Source of the DNA: Acidobacteriota bacterium
GTDB taxonomy: Bacteria; Acidobacteriota; Vicinamibacteria; Vicinamibacterales; UBA8438
DNA length: 64,000 bases
Direction of reading: 5' to 3'
Assembly: GCA_009861545.1 (NCBI GenBank)
Contig: VXME01000067.1
Coordinates: forward strand, 62,001 to 126,000
In this document: positions 49,310 through 55,208 of the stretch, one piece after another
Numbering within the stretch: position 1 is the first letter of the stretch
Layout: every line of letters begins with the position of its first letter
Program-made: the position numbers and the translations under genes
The notes under the pieces: model-generated
Told to the model about the DNA's origin: nothing
Seen by the model: only the letters and a program-made list of their open reading frames with translations
The model's database searches: none

Positions 49310-50425
49310 TCAGCGCACGAGCAGCTCCGACGGCCGATGCAGCACGTAGCGCACGAGCCGCCGCCGGCTGACCTCCCCGGCATAGATGTTGCCGTCGAAG
49401 TCGACGCCGAGAAACTCGATGCCCGCGCCGACATCCTCGTCGTGCTGGGGAATGAAGTGCGTCACCCACGCCTGGTCGGTCTTCAGATCGCCGATCCGCA
49501 CGCCCTTGTCCCAGCCGAGGTTGCTGCGCCAGTTGTCGGGAGGTCCCTGGCGCACCATCCCGGACAGGCCGTCGCCGGCGTAGAGGATGTCGTTGTGGTC
49601 GATGAAAAGGCCGCTCGGCTTGCCGTAGTGCGTCCAGATGTACAGGAGGTCGCCCTCGGAATCGAACACCTGGATCCGGCTGTTGCCCCGGTCGGCGACG
49701 TAGACGCGCCCCTGGGAGTCCATCTTGATGTCGTGCGGATCGCTGAAGCCGGCGGCCTCCTTGCTCTCCGAGCCGACCCCGCCGCCCACCGCCAGCAGAA
49801 AGGTGCCGTCACTCGAGAACTTCACGATCCGGTTGTTGCCGCCGCGGTGGCCGTCCGACACCCAGATGTCGCCGTTGGGCGCGACGACGACCCCGGAAGG
49901 GCCGTTGAAGTGATGCTCGTCGTCGCCCCAGACGGCGGCCTCGCCCAGGCGCATCACGACCTCGCCACGCTGGTTCAGCTTCAGCACCTGGTGCCCGATG
50001 CCGATTCGCTCTCCCGGCGTGGCCCGCGAGTCGCCGTGCGACCCGCCCTCGGTCACCCACAGAAATCCCTCGTGGTCGAGAAAGAACCCGTGCGGGAAGC
50101 CGAAGAGCCCGGCGCCGAAGCTGTCGACCAGGTTCCCCTCGAGGTCGAACTTCATGATCGGGTCCAGGTCGGAGCCGGCGCACTGGTTCGCGCCGCAGCG
50201 GTCGAGGATCCAGAGGTGCTCGCCGTCGGGATCGGGAAAGACCCCGCTCACCGTGCCCATCACGCGGCCCTCGGGCATCTTCTCCCACCCGAAGGTCGCC
50301 CGGTACGGGTTGGTCGTCGACGACTGGGCCTGGACGTCCGCGACCGGACCGAGCAGCAGCCCCGCCAGCACGATCAACGCGACAGCGACTCCGAGAACCG
50401 AACCACGTCGACCCGCATTCAGCAT
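49310..50425 (-). CDS. Secreted NHL-repeat six-bladed propeller protein
   Basis: A 371-residue exported protein from ATG 50425. The signal peptide is LGVAVALIVLAGLLLGPVA, with cleavage near DVQAQ. Repeats with the NHL pattern are clear: FPHGFFLDHEGFLWVTEGG, GPSGVVVAPNGDIWVSDG, DPHDIKMDSQGRVYVADRGN and KPSGLFIDHNDILYAGDG. Such proteins include peptidyl-alpha-hydroxyglycine alpha-amidating lyase-like enzymes. Conserved His/Asp in HDIK and Asp in VADR could bind metal, but the reaction is not known for bacterial members. It is divergent from pcaH, 148 bases away, and may share its regulatory region. Confidence 0.82.
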   Translation of the reverse strand: MLNAGRRGSVLGVAVALIVLAGLLLGPVADVQAQSSTTNPYRATFGWEKMPEGRVMGTVSGVFPDPDGEHLWILDRCGANQCAGSDLDPIMKFDLEGNLVDSFGAGLFGFPHGFFLDHEGFLWVTEGGSHGDSRATPGERIGIGHQVLKLNQRGEVVMRLGEAAVWGDDEHHFNGPSGVVVAPNGDIWVSDGHRGGNNRIVKFSSDGTFLLAVGGGVGSESKEAAGFSDPHDIKMDSQGRVYVADRGNSRIQVFDSEGDLLYIWTHYGKPSGLFIDHNDILYAGDGLSGMVRQGPPDNWRSNLGWDKGVRIGDLKTDQAWVTHFIPQHDEDVGAGIEFLGVDFDGNIYAGEVSRRRLVRYVLHRPSELLVR

Positions 50426-50573
50426 TGGCTCTACTCCCTCTCCACTGCGGCCCGGCAAGGACGCGTCCCCCACGTGCTCTGTCGATACGCAATATTAGCG
50501 CCCTCCGCCGGAGCGTGCGCGGAGGCCGGAAACGTGCGGGTCCGGGTGAAGTCCGCTACGATTGTCGGGCGCC

Positions 50574-51281
50574 GTGGCGTCCCAGATTCACCCCTATCGC
50601 CGTCCGCCGGCCGGCCACGATCCACCGAACGACGTGCCGGGGTACCGGTCCACCGCGCTGCGCCATCCCGCGCAACCGCTGGTGGTGATTCCGCAGACGC
50701 TGTCCGAGATCACCGGTCCCGTCCACGGCTACGGACCGGTGGGACCGCTCGACGGCAACCTGACGCGGCAGCACGACGGCGCACCCGTCGGCGAGCGCAT
50801 CGTCATCGCCGGGAGAGTGCTGGACGAGGATGAACGACCGGTCCCCGAAACGCTGGTCGAGATCTGGCAGGCGAACGCCGCCGGCCGCTACGCCCACGCG
50901 GGAGACACCCATGACGCGCCGCTCGATCCGAACTTCAGCGGGGCGGGCCGCATGCTCACCGACGCCGCGGGCCGGTTCCGGTTCACGACCATCAGGCCGG
51001 GGGCGTATCCCTGGGCCAATCACGACAACGCCTGGCGCCCGGCGCACGTGCACTTCTCGGTCTTCGGGCGCAGCTTCCTGACCCGGCTGATGACGCAGAT
51101 GTACTTTCCCGGCGATCCGCTGCTGGCCCTCGATCCGATATTCAACGCGGTGCCCGACGCCGCGGGGCGCGAGCGGCTGGTGGCTGCGTTCGACCTCGAT
51201 GTGACGGAGCCCGGACGGGCGCTCGGATACCGCTTCGACATCGTCCTGCGCGGGCGCGACGCCACCCCGCTGCAAGGCTAG
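50574..51281 (+). CDS. pcaH: Protocatechuate 3,4-dioxygenase beta subunit
   Basis: A 235-residue subunit of the intradiol dioxygenase that opens protocatechuate to 3-carboxy-cis,cis-muconate. GTG 50574 is chosen; TTG 50562 is possible, and no strong ribosome site is visible for either. The four Fe(III) ligands are all here, which identifies the catalytic subunit: Y106 (AAGRYAHAGDT), Y145 (RPGAYPWANHDNAWRP), H158 and H160 (PAHVHFSVFG). The motif LVEIWQANAAGRY is the family signature. It heads the pca operon, nine bases before pcaG. Confidence 0.95.
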   Translation: MASQIHPYRRPPAGHDPPNDVPGYRSTALRHPAQPLVVIPQTLSEITGPVHGYGPVGPLDGNLTRQHDGAPVGERIVIAGRVLDEDERPVPETLVEIWQANAAGRYAHAGDTHDAPLDPNFSGAGRMLTDAAGRFRFTTIRPGAYPWANHDNAWRPAHVHFSVFGRSFLTRLMTQMYFPGDPLLALDPIFNAVPDAAGRERLVAAFDLDVTEPGRALGYRFDIVLRGRDATPLQG

Positions 51282-51290
51282 GCGCCCGCC

Positions 51291-51851
51291 ATGCTGCCGC
51301 TCACACCTGCCCAGACCGTAGGCCCCTTCTTTGCAGTGCTCGTGCCGGAACGGGGCCACCTGGCGCTCGTGACGGACGAGACGCCGGGGGAGCGCATCGT
51401 CATCGAGGGCGTGGTCCGCGACGGCATCGGCCAACCGGTGCCGGATGCCCTCATCGAGATCTGGCAGGCGAACGCCGCCGGACGCTGCAATCACCCCGAG
51501 GACCCGCGCACCAAGGGGCGCGACCACACGTTCGACGGGTTCGGCCGGGTGCATGCCGACGTCAAGGGCCGCTTCCACATCGAAACCATCAAGCCGGGAT
51601 CGGTACCCGGACCCAGGGGCCGGCCCCAGGCGCCGCATCTGATGGTCGGGCTCTTCGCCCGCGGGCTGCTGACGCGGCTCGTCACGCGCATCTACTTCGA
51701 AGACGAGCCCTGGAACGCCCTGGATCCGATCCTGGCCCACGTCGCGCCGGACCGCCGGCACACGCTCGTCGCGGCACACCGAGGCGCCGGACGGTACGGT
51801 CACGCCATCGTGCTCCAGGGGCGGGGCGAAACGGTGTTCTTCGATGTCTGA
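51291..51851 (+). CDS. pcaG: Protocatechuate 3,4-dioxygenase alpha subunit
   Basis: A 186-residue non-catalytic partner of PcaH from ATG 51291. It opens with LTPAQTVGPFFAVLV, typical of the alpha subunit, and shares LIEIWQANAAGR with PcaH. The position of the first Tyr ligand is Cys (GRCNHPED), and only one His of the HVH pair is retained (APHLMVGLFARG). That loss of metal ligands is normal for PcaG. It lies between pcaH and pcaB in one transcript. Confidence 0.94.
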   Translation: MLPLTPAQTVGPFFAVLVPERGHLALVTDETPGERIVIEGVVRDGIGQPVPDALIEIWQANAAGRCNHPEDPRTKGRDHTFDGFGRVHADVKGRFHIETIKPGSVPGPRGRPQAPHLMVGLFARGLLTRLVTRIYFEDEPWNALDPILAHVAPDRRHTLVAAHRGAGRYGHAIVLQGRGETVFFDV

Positions 51852-51866
51852 CGGGTCGGATCGGCG

Positions 51867-53243
51867 ATGACCCACGGCGCGCGCCTGCACGCCCGGGTGC
51901 TGGGCGACGCGGACGTCGCAGCGCACTTTTCCGGCCGGGCGCAGCTTCAGGCGATGCTGGACGTCGAGGCCGCGCTCGCGGCGGCGGAGGCGCAGGTCGG
52001 AGTGATTCCCCCGGGTTGCGTCGCCCCCATCCGGGCCGCCGCGCGGGCCGAGCTGTACGACCGGGTGCGCATCGCCGTCGAGGCGACCGAAACGGGCAAT
52101 CCCGTGATCCCGGTGGTGCGGCATTTGACCGCCCGGGTGGAGGAGTCGGACGCCGAGGCGGCGCGCTTCGTCCACTGGGGCGCGACCAGCCAGGACGTCC
52201 TGGACACCGGTCTGGTGCTGCAACTCCGCACCGCGGTTCCCACCGTGATCGACCACCTGGATCGAGGCGTTCTGGCCGCCGCGGCCCACGCGCGCCGCCA
52301 CGCCGGGGCGACCATGGCCGGCCGCACCTGGTTACAGCAGGCGACACCGGTGACCTTCGGGCTCAAGGCGGCAGGCTGGGCGGACGCGCTGGACCGCGTG
52401 CGGGGCCGGCTGCGGGCCGCGCTCGACGGCGCGCTCGTGCTGCAGCTCGGCGGCGCTTCGGGCACCCTGGCGTCGCTCGGGCCGCAGGGCCCGGCCGTCA
52501 CCGAGGCGCTGGCCGCCCGCCTCGGCCTGCCGGCCCCGGACGTCCCCTGGCACGCGCACCGCGACCGGTTCGCGCAGCTCGCCTGCGCCCTCGGCATCGC
52601 GGCCGGCACGGCCGGCAAGATCGGGCGCGACGTCGCCCTGCTGGCGCAGACCGAGGTCGGCGAAGTCAGCGAGCGGCCGGGGCAGGGACGCGGCGGGTCG
52701 TCGACGATGCCGCAGAAGCAGAATCCGGTCGCGGCGTCCATCGCGCTGGCCGCCGCCGGCCGCGCGCCCGGACTGGTGGCGACGATGCTCGGCGCCCTGG
52801 TGCAGGAGCACGAGCGCGGCCTCGGCGGCTGGCAGGTCGAATGGGATACGCTGCCCGATCTGGTGGTGATTGCGGCGGGCGGGGCGCGGGCGGCAACCGA
52901 CGCGCTGGACGGACTGGCCGTCGACACCGGTCGCATGCGCGCCAACGCCGACGCCTCCGGCGGCATCCTCCTGGCCGAATCCGTCGCCATGGCGCTCGCC
53001 GGGTCGATCGGCAAGCACGAGGCGCACGCCTGCATCGCGGGGGCGTGCAGGCGAGCCGAGGCCGAGCGACGTCCCCTGGCCGACGTGCTGGCCGACGACC
53101 CGCTGGTGGCGCGACATCTCGATTCCGCGGCCATCGCGCGGCTGCTCTCGGCGGACGACTACCTGGGCGCCACCCGCACCTACATCGACCGGGTCCTGGA
53201 GCGGCTGGACGCTCCCGGCGGAGACGATGCACGTCGACGCTGA
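51867..53243 (+). CDS. pcaB: 3-carboxy-cis,cis-muconate cycloisomerase
   Basis: A 458-residue enzyme of the fumarase/aspartase superfamily from ATG 51867. It cyclises 3-carboxymuconate to 4-carboxymuconolactone, the second step of the protocatechuate branch. The superfamily signature is GSSTMPQKQNP in the catalytic loop. Other conserved blocks are VHWGATSQDVLDTGLVLQL, GRTWLQQATPVTFGLKAAGW and LGGASGTLASLG. Its stop overlaps the start of the pcaD remnant by 17 bases, so the operon was once tightly coupled. Confidence 0.95.
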   Translation: MTHGARLHARVLGDADVAAHFSGRAQLQAMLDVEAALAAAEAQVGVIPPGCVAPIRAAARAELYDRVRIAVEATETGNPVIPVVRHLTARVEESDAEAARFVHWGATSQDVLDTGLVLQLRTAVPTVIDHLDRGVLAAAAHARRHAGATMAGRTWLQQATPVTFGLKAAGWADALDRVRGRLRAALDGALVLQLGGASGTLASLGPQGPAVTEALAARLGLPAPDVPWHAHRDRFAQLACALGIAAGTAGKIGRDVALLAQTEVGEVSERPGQGRGGSSTMPQKQNPVAASIALAAAGRAPGLVATMLGALVQEHERGLGGWQVEWDTLPDLVVIAAGGARAATDALDGLAVDTGRMRANADASGGILLAESVAMALAGSIGKHEAHACIAGACRRAEAERRPLADVLADDPLVARHLDSAAIARLLSADDYLGATRTYIDRVLERLDAPGGDDARRR

Positions 53244-53304
53244 CGGCCGCCGGCTCTCGTTCTCGATCACCGGGGCCGGAGCAGGACGGCCGTCGAGCTC
53301 CTGA
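53227..53304 (+). pseudogene. pcaD: pcaD remnant (N-terminus of 3-oxoadipate enol-lactonase)
   Basis: ATG 53227 begins 16 bases before the pcaB stop and reads MHVDADGRRLSFSITGAGAG then RPSSS and a stop. The opening ADGRRLSFSITGAG matches the first strand pair of alpha/beta-hydrolase enol-lactonases, which follow pcaB in many operons. The remaining ~230 residues, including the Ser-Asp-His triad, are absent. pcaC begins 15 bases after the stop. A deletion removed pcaD while keeping its neighbours intact. Confidence 0.65.
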
Positions 53305-53319
53305 CACACCGAGGCTGCA

Positions 53320-53709
53320 ATGGACGACAGCGAACGGCACGCGGCGGGAATGGCGATACGGCGGGAGATTCTGGGCGACGCCTACGTCAACCGGACGGTC
53401 GCCGATACGACCGACGCCACCACGGAGATCCAGGACCTGATCACGCGCTACGCGTGGGGAGAAGTCTGGACGCGGCCGGGCCTCGACCACCGCACGCGCC
53501 GCGTGCTGGTGATCGGCACGCAGATCGCGCTCCGGCAGTGGGACCAGTACCGGATACACGTGCGGGCGGCGCTCGCCGAGGGCGGGTTCTCCATGGACGA
53601 CATCAACGAGATCGTGCTCCAGCAGGCGATCTACTGCGGGGCGCCGGCGGCGCTGACGGCCATCAACGTCGCTCGGCAGGTCCTCGACGAGATCGGGGAC
53701 GGCTCATGA
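53320..53709 (+). CDS. pcaC: 4-carboxymuconolactone decarboxylase
   Basis: A 129-residue enzyme from ATG 53320, with GAGG 6-9 nt upstream. It decarboxylates 4-carboxymuconolactone to 3-oxoadipate enol-lactone. The CMD fold is recognised by AIRREILGDAYVNRTVADTT, ITRYAWGEVWTRPGLDHRTR, QIALRQWDQYRIHVRAALAE and VLQQAIYCGAPAALTAINVA. The length is that of free-standing PcaC. Its product needs PcaD, which is deleted just upstream, so the next step must be supplied elsewhere. It overlaps the transporter start in ATGA. Confidence 0.94.
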   Translation: MDDSERHAAGMAIRREILGDAYVNRTVADTTDATTEIQDLITRYAWGEVWTRPGLDHRTRRVLVIGTQIALRQWDQYRIHVRAALAEGGFSMDDINEIVLQQAIYCGAPAALTAINVARQVLDEIGDGS

Positions 53710-55208
53710 CCGCGGGGGATGCCGGCCCGGCCGCCGGCGCCGCGAGCCCCGCCGCACCGGGGTCGGGCGCCCAGGGCACAAGCGGCTCGAACGTCACCAC
53801 TGCCGGGCTGCTGGGCGCGGCGGCCCTGACCGGCTTCATCCTGATCCTGCCGACGCCGGAAGGGCTCCCGCCGGAGGCGCATCGGCTGGCCGCGCTGTTC
53901 GCCGGCGTGCTGGTGCTGTGGTCCACCGAGGCGCTGCCGATCGCGGTGACCTCCCTGCTGGCCCTGGCCCTGCAGCCGCTCTTCGGCCTCACCTCGCTGG
54001 TCAGCGGGCGGCCGCCCACCCCCGGCGCCATCTTCGGGGCGGCCGCCGCCAACTTCATGAGCAGCGTCTTCTTCTTCGTGCTCGTGATGTTCGCCATCGC
54101 CTACGCGTGGGTGAAGACCGGCCTGGCCCGCCGCTTCGCGCTGTGGCTGATCGCGCGGGCGGGCACCGACGCCACGCGGGCCGTGTACGTGTTCATGATC
54201 GGCACCGGCCTGATCTCGATGGTCGTTTCCGACGTGCCCGCCGCCGCCATCTTCATGGCCATCGCCGTCGGCATCCTCGACAAGCTGGGGCTGCGGCCCG
54301 GCTCCCGCTTCGGCCGGGCGGTGATGATCGGCATCCCGATCGCGGCGCTGATCGGCGGCGTCGGCACGCCGGCGGGCAGCTCGATCAACCTGCTCGGCCT
54401 GGTCATGATCGAGCAGGCCGGCGGCGAGCGCGTCCCGTTCCTGCACTGGATGGCGATCGGCATCCCGATGGTAGCCGTCCTGCTGCCGGTGGCGGCCTGG
54501 GTGCTGGTGAAGTTCTTTCCACCGGAGATCGCCTCCATCGGCGACCTGGAGGAGATTCACGACGAGCGGCGCCGGATCGGGCCGGTCAGCACCGCCGAGT
54601 GGAAGGTGATCGCCATCATGGGGGCGATGCTCACCCTCTGGATCGCCAGCACGTGGCTGCCGGTGTTCGACACCTTCCTGGTCGCCGTCGTCGGCGCTGT
54701 GGCGATGTTCCTGCCCGGCATCGGCCTCTTCACCTGGAAGGAGGTCCAGCAGGTCACCGGCTGGGACACGCTGATGGTGATCGGCGGCGTGACGTCGCTG
54801 GGCCAGGCGTCGTCGCGGACCGGTCTGGCGGCGTGGCTCGCCGAGTCGGCCCTGGGCGGCCTCGCCGACTGGAACGCCGTCGCCCTCATCGCCGCGATCA
54901 GCGCCTTCACGGTGGTCATCCACCTGATGCTGCCGATCGCGCCGGTCATCAACGCCGTGATGATCCCGCCGATCATGGTGCTCGGCGCGGCGGCCGGCGT
55001 GAACCCGGCCCTCTACGCGCTGCCGGTCATCTTCACCGCGTCGTGCGCCTTCCTGCTGCCGCTCGACGCCGTGCCCCTGGTCACCTACAGCCGGGGCTAC
55101 TACCGGATGTTCGACATGCTGCCGCCAGGCCTCGTGATCAGCGCGGTATGGGTCGTGCTGATGACGGCGCTGCTGATCGTGATCGGGCCGCTGGTGGGGT
55201 TGCTGTAG
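53706..55208 (+). CDS. SLC13/DASS-family anion transporter
   Basis: A 500-residue inner-membrane transporter from ATG 53706, coupled to pcaC by a 4-base overlap. It has about 11-12 hydrophobic segments. Two conserved hairpin motifs of divalent-anion:Na+ symporters are visible in GGVGTPAGSSINLLGLVMIE and in VIHLMLPIAPVINAVMIPPI; in this family the S-N-T-like loops bind sodium and carboxylates. Co-transcription with pcaHGBC suggests uptake of protocatechuate or a related aromatic or dicarboxylic acid. That would be an unusual choice, since PcaK-type MFS carriers are the common partner. The substrate is an inference. Confidence 0.88.
   Translation: MTAGDAGPAAGAASPAAPGSGAQGTSGSNVTTAGLLGAAALTGFILILPTPEGLPPEAHRLAALFAGVLVLWSTEALPIAVTSLLALALQPLFGLTSLVSGRPPTPGAIFGAAAANFMSSVFFFVLVMFAIAYAWVKTGLARRFALWLIARAGTDATRAVYVFMIGTGLISMVVSDVPAAAIFMAIAVGILDKLGLRPGSRFGRAVMIGIPIAALIGGVGTPAGSSINLLGLVMIEQAGGERVPFLHWMAIGIPMVAVLLPVAAWVLVKFFPPEIASIGDLEEIHDERRRIGPVSTAEWKVIAIMGAMLTLWIASTWLPVFDTFLVAVVGAVAMFLPGIGLFTWKEVQQVTGWDTLMVIGGVTSLGQASSRTGLAAWLAESALGGLADWNAVALIAAISAFTVVIHLMLPIAPVINAVMIPPIMVLGAAAGVNPALYALPVIFTASCAFLLPLDAVPLVTYSRGYYRMFDMLPPGLVISAVWVVLMTALLIVIGPLVGLL

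Follow-up and report, generated by a model that had tools for sequence, protein, structure and literature searches.

The 25-codon open reading frame (ORF) between pcaB and pcaC in the window, the 64,000-nucleotide stretch of Acidobacteriota DNA analyzed here, is by its sequence a pcaD scar: an internal deletion took out about 690 bp of the gene. The deletion is genuine and lies in an otherwise conserved operon, and pcaD loss proved more widespread than supposed in a preliminary description of this DNA, which had implied that the deletion was unique: six further pcaB-carrying genomes of the family have no pcaD.

The operon genes of the window all lie on the + strand in the order pcaH, pcaG, pcaB, 25-codon ORF, pcaC and the gene of a DASS-type symporter. 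The intact pcaD of the congener G001 (a 280-codon ORF) served as reference for the scar alignments, with 500 shuffles per match. The features of the region are:

50562-51281, + strand: pcaH, protocatechuate 3,4-dioxygenase beta subunit (TIGR02422, 341 bits; cut-off 296.4)
51291-51851, + strand: pcaG, protocatechuate 3,4-dioxygenase alpha subunit (TIGR02423, 207 bits; cut-off 126.25)
51867-53243, + strand: pcaB, 3-carboxy-cis,cis-muconate cycloisomerase (TIGR02426, 383 bits; cut-off 355.75)
53227-53304, + strand: scar ORF of 25 codons, its stop out of frame and 15 nt before the pcaC start (from the reading frames in four genomes)
53227-53285, + strand: 5' remnant of pcaD, corresponding to nt 1-58 of G001 pcaD with a 1-nt insertion
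53287-53306, + strand: 3' remnant of pcaD, corresponding to about nt 752-771 of G001 pcaD, out of frame with the 5' remnant
53320-53709, + strand: pcaC, 4-carboxymuconolactone decarboxylase (TIGR02425, 136.7 bits; cut-off 155.7; Pfam CMD over cut-off)
53706-55208, + strand: DASS-family (SLC13-like) sodium:anion symporter gene (TIGR00785, 232 bits, over cut-off; Pfam PF00939)

The products of pcaH, pcaG and pcaB (3/3) scored above the curated NCBIfam cut-offs. The identity of PcaC is clear from its Pfam family and conserved operon position, though it scored below the TIGR02425 equivalog cut-off. The start of the DASS gene overlaps the end of pcaC by 4 nt.

The mini-ORF at 53227-53304 (MHVDADGRRLSFSITGAGAGRPSSS) overlaps the end of pcaB (stop at 53243) by 17 nt, confirming that pcaD is missing between pcaB and pcaC and that a short ORF overlaps the pcaB stop, as had been described. 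It gave no match to the NCBIfam profiles and lies outside the definition of PcaD, an alpha/beta-hydrolase of about 250 residues scoring above 255.85 bits with TIGR02427. Comparison with the intact pcaD of G001 fixed both remnants, and with them the ends of the deletion. The local alignment of the 5' remnant scored 66, the best of 500 shuffles reaching 32. The 3' remnant scored 28, a value equalled by 0/500 shuffles, the match being short and the best shuffle scoring 26; its counterparts in the related genomes G002 and G005 are longer and clear. Relative to the G001 gene about 690 bp of pcaD are absent from the window, and the catalytic Ser-Asp-His of PcaD is gone, since everything from nt 59 to about nt 751 of the gene was deleted. 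The statement that only the first ~22 codons remain therefore holds for the presence of the 5' end, but a 3' remnant is also there and the in-frame pcaD part of the scar amounts to about 15-16 codons, followed by the 1-nt insertion. The position of the former pcaD stop (53310-53312) reads CGA in the window and TGA in G002 and G005. The scar alignment also bears out that the deletion spared pcaB, pcaC and the transporter.

The distribution of pcaD was determined in 28 genomes of one family of uncultured Acidobacteriota, 19 of them with a close pcaB and nine without. PcaD scored over the cut-off in 12 of the 19 pcaB-carrying genomes, and the remaining seven had none anywhere in the assembly: G000 (the window's genome), G002 and G003, all of the window's genus, and G005, G007, G020 and G024. 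Completeness was 94-99% in three of these seven. Wherever pcaD survives among the relatives examined it follows pcaB, and in the congener G001 it is intact in its operon place. In G002 the scar consists of about 29 nt from the pcaD 5' end and the 3' end of the gene starting near nt 748. In G003 about 41 nt are left of the 5' end and, judged by eye, the final few codons; in G005 only a 3' piece of pcaD, longer than that of the window, is left. Alignment found no significant pcaD remnant in G007, and in G020 and G024 pcaD is entirely gone and the operon pcaC is reduced to 25-28 codons. An assembly error in a metagenome-assembled genome is an extremely improbable source of the gap, since scars with differing ends occur at the same site in four separately assembled genomes, on contigs of up to 886 kb.

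Conservation of the same short ORF in relatives without a full-length pcaD had been named beforehand as a finding that would speak against a deletion. Short ORFs do occur there, but their sequence and length vary among the genomes, and a conserved small gene at the pcaB-pcaC junction was rejected on this ground. Since the short ORF begins with the pcaD 5' end in the window's genus, it is a scar there.

Several other features of the pca loci were observed in the family. In G024 and G020 (loci L018 and L019; also L046 and L047) the truncated pcaC is followed by a convergent gene, labelled OsmC-like from sequence resemblance, and then by the DASS gene. The same convergent gene lies directly after pcaD in G004, G009, G016, G017, G022 and G025, where the operon pcaC is absent and most of the genomes have a pcaC paralog (37-43%) elsewhere. 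The pca genes of G007 (L045), with a DASS gene 86% identical and on the opposite strand, are nearer to those of genera g1/g3 than to those of its own genus g5, which suggests that this operon was acquired by transfer. About 3.2 kb separate pcaG from pcaB in G006 (L050), against less than 150 bp in most other relatives.

The number of losses was analyzed using trees of the operon genes and of genes outside the operon. A tree of six conserved proteins outside the operon groups the pcaD-carrying G001 with G003, which lacks pcaD (support 97/98), and rpoB alone also joins the two (support 99). A single loss common to G000, G002, G003 and G005 but not G001 was rejected (p-AU 0.001), and one common to G000, G002 and G003 alone was weakly rejected (p = 0.038). 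The operon-gene tree leaves the number of losses undecided. Thus a single ancestral loss is compatible with the operon genes alone and is disfavoured by the housekeeping genes; since these place G001 among genomes without pcaD, several losses are likelier than one. The simplest count would be at least two losses in the window's genus, one in G005 and at least one in the line of G020 and G024. The intact gene may have reached G001 by transfer. Re-insertion of pcaD into a scar of G001 was rejected, since the 5' gap is unlike a scar (141/500 shuffles were as good), and the G001 pcaD looks native. About 61 nt at its 3' end (L041 / L011) are locally duplicated in tandem, with a repeat of 37 nt, and this lengthens PcaD by about 20 residues beyond the likely ancestral stop. 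The deletion in the window had been called recent; its scar has since gained a frameshift and a stop-loss, and the loss of pcaD is probably older than was supposed.

The effect of pcaD loss on the remaining genes was assessed from dN/dS ratios. Between genomes without pcaD the ratio for pcaC was 0.126 (G000/G002), 0.086 (G000/G003) and 0.086 (G002/G003), indicating that constraint on pcaC outlasted the loss of pcaD. For the pair G000/G002, in which pcaC is 97% identical, the values for pcaC, pcaH and DASS were 0.08-0.13. For pcaB the ratio was about 0.2, and DASS, pcaH and pcaB are, like pcaC, under purifying selection. These values, and the intactness of all other operon genes in the window, make it quite unlikely that the operon is in general decay with pcaD merely the first gene lost, a reading that draws on the loss of pcaD and most of pcaC in G020 and G024 and on the nine family genomes without a close pcaB.

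The first 17 nt of pcaD are also pcaB coding sequence, and its last 20-50 nt are upstream of the pcaC start, which has a GAGG motif. We infer that the deletion edges fall where continued expression of pcaB and pcaC requires them to. The scar ORFs of G000, G002, G003 and G005 all stop at one shared out-of-frame TGA that lies 15 nt upstream of pcaC, an end expected by chance in 1 of 3 random deletions, the four lineages being related. This shared end is compatible with translational coupling of pcaB to pcaC but is weak evidence for it, and the scar ORF could possibly act as a translational bridge between them.

The genome of the window (6.35 Mb, 174 contigs, 99.3% complete) was searched for a distant pcaD, as the preliminary description had proposed. 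A six-frame TIGR02427 search, which would also catch a fused enol-lactonase domain of the PcaL type, gave nothing over 255.85 bits (best matches 108 and 104 bits), and the best match to G001 PcaD had 31% identity (E 9e-13). The assembled genome therefore has no PcaD ortholog elsewhere. Three candidate substitutes were rejected. L001 carries a Tat-like signal and is probably exported. L002 is a general alpha/beta hydrolase with orthologs in genomes both with and without pcaD; they occur in the pcaD-carrying G001, G013 and G019, and none scored above threshold in G005. The divergently transcribed NHL-repeat protein gene at 49310-50473 looks secreted and has a homolog in G001, which carries pcaD. 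Across the genomes of the family no TIGR02427-like hydrolase co-varies with pcaD loss, and the searches for orthologs and PcaD-like hydrolases identified no replacement for PcaD.

The textbook pathway is taken to require PcaD, and mutation of pcaD abolishes growth of Pseudomonas stutzeri A1501 on 4-hydroxybenzoate (PMC2907835), indicating that spontaneous hydrolysis is insufficient in that organism. This result stands against the view that the lactone hydrolyzes by itself at a rate sufficient for these bacteria, which presumably grow slowly, and that PcaD therefore has no enzymatic replacement. We regard that view as rather unlikely, although pcaD loss recurs with no co-varying PcaD-like hydrolase and although G020 and G024 also lost most of pcaC, which would fit a lesser importance of the late steps. 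According to the older literature 3-oxoadipate enol-lactone is labile; a literature search gave no value for the rate of its uncatalysed hydrolysis, and a search for known cases of pcaD loss found nothing useful.

The rest of the pathway was also examined. PobA and CatC were not detected in any of the 28 family genomes, although 19 carry pcaB, and PcaF was below the equivalog cut-off in 28/28 (510 vs 597 bits in G000). A PcaI/ScoA match in G000 reached 252 bits, over the cut-off; matches in G013 and G025 scored 346-363 bits, and that of G000 is probably generic, like most in the family. These gaps, the generic score of about 250 bits and the overlap of the DASS anion symporter gene with pcaC would fit a pathway that ends at or diverts from the lactone, by way of another product, another substrate or excretion, with PcaD useless and PcaB and PcaC retained. 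On the other hand, PobA, CatC and a PcaF over the cut-off are also missing in relatives with pcaD, indicating that pathway entry and exit are not textbook here irrespective of pcaD, and DASS proteins are usually importers. Such a diversion is in our judgement unlikely.

We consider it fairly probable, taking the explanation as a whole, that pcaD was reduced to a deletion scar in an operon that still works and whose lactone is opened by a route other than PcaD. As read from the genome assembly, the operon would still be functional in the genomes without pcaD, PcaHG, PcaB and PcaC converting protocatechuate to 3-oxoadipate enol-lactone. PcaD would then take no part in opening the lactone; the most likely agent would be a promiscuous hydrolase encoded away from the operon and not orthologous to PcaD, with spontaneous hydrolysis perhaps contributing. 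With the kept edges, the 3' end of pcaB and the ribosome-binding region of pcaC would be saved, and ribosomes would pass from pcaB across the mini-ORF to pcaC. Repeated discard of pcaD while selection maintains pcaC suggests that an enzyme has been missed, that chemistry provides a shortcut or that the product is a different one, and pathway-completeness calls that rely on the presence of pcaD can mislead in Acidobacteriota. The pcaD-carrying G001 provides a matched comparison for the genomes of the window's genus that lack the gene.

The window shares with the canonical pca operon the same enzymes and the pcaB-pcaD-pcaC order, in which the pcaD start overlaps or lies near the pcaB stop; this order is intact in the relatives G001, G013, G019 and G006, whereas in the window a scar is all that is left of pcaD, and the rest of the genome holds no copy. 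The window's PcaC is similar to the decarboxylase half of fused PcaL/PcaDC proteins (NF051488, NF051487) but is free-standing, with 129 aa and no lactonase domain. In a control set of 80 pcaB loci of named genomes, pcaC adjoins pcaB without pcaD, as in the window, in 11, nearly all from Pseudomonas, and in such Pseudomonas and Bordetella clusters pcaC follows 24-66 bp after pcaB. Unlike the window's genome, nine of the ten genomes tested from these 11 carry a pcaD/catD elsewhere over the cut-off. The tenth, the complete genome of Pseudomonas sp. KUIN-1 (L227), has a single high-scoring pcaD-like gene, which is divided between two reading frames; this strain may also have lost PcaD, or the split may be a sequencing error. 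Since nothing like the unlinked PcaD of Pseudomonas is present in the Acidobacteriota without pcaD, opening of the lactone by a non-orthologous enzyme or unaided is suggested. Tentatively, an enzyme unrelated to PcaD might open the lactone, or PcaB and PcaC might lead to another end product, either of which would make pcaD repeatedly dispensable in these bacteria.
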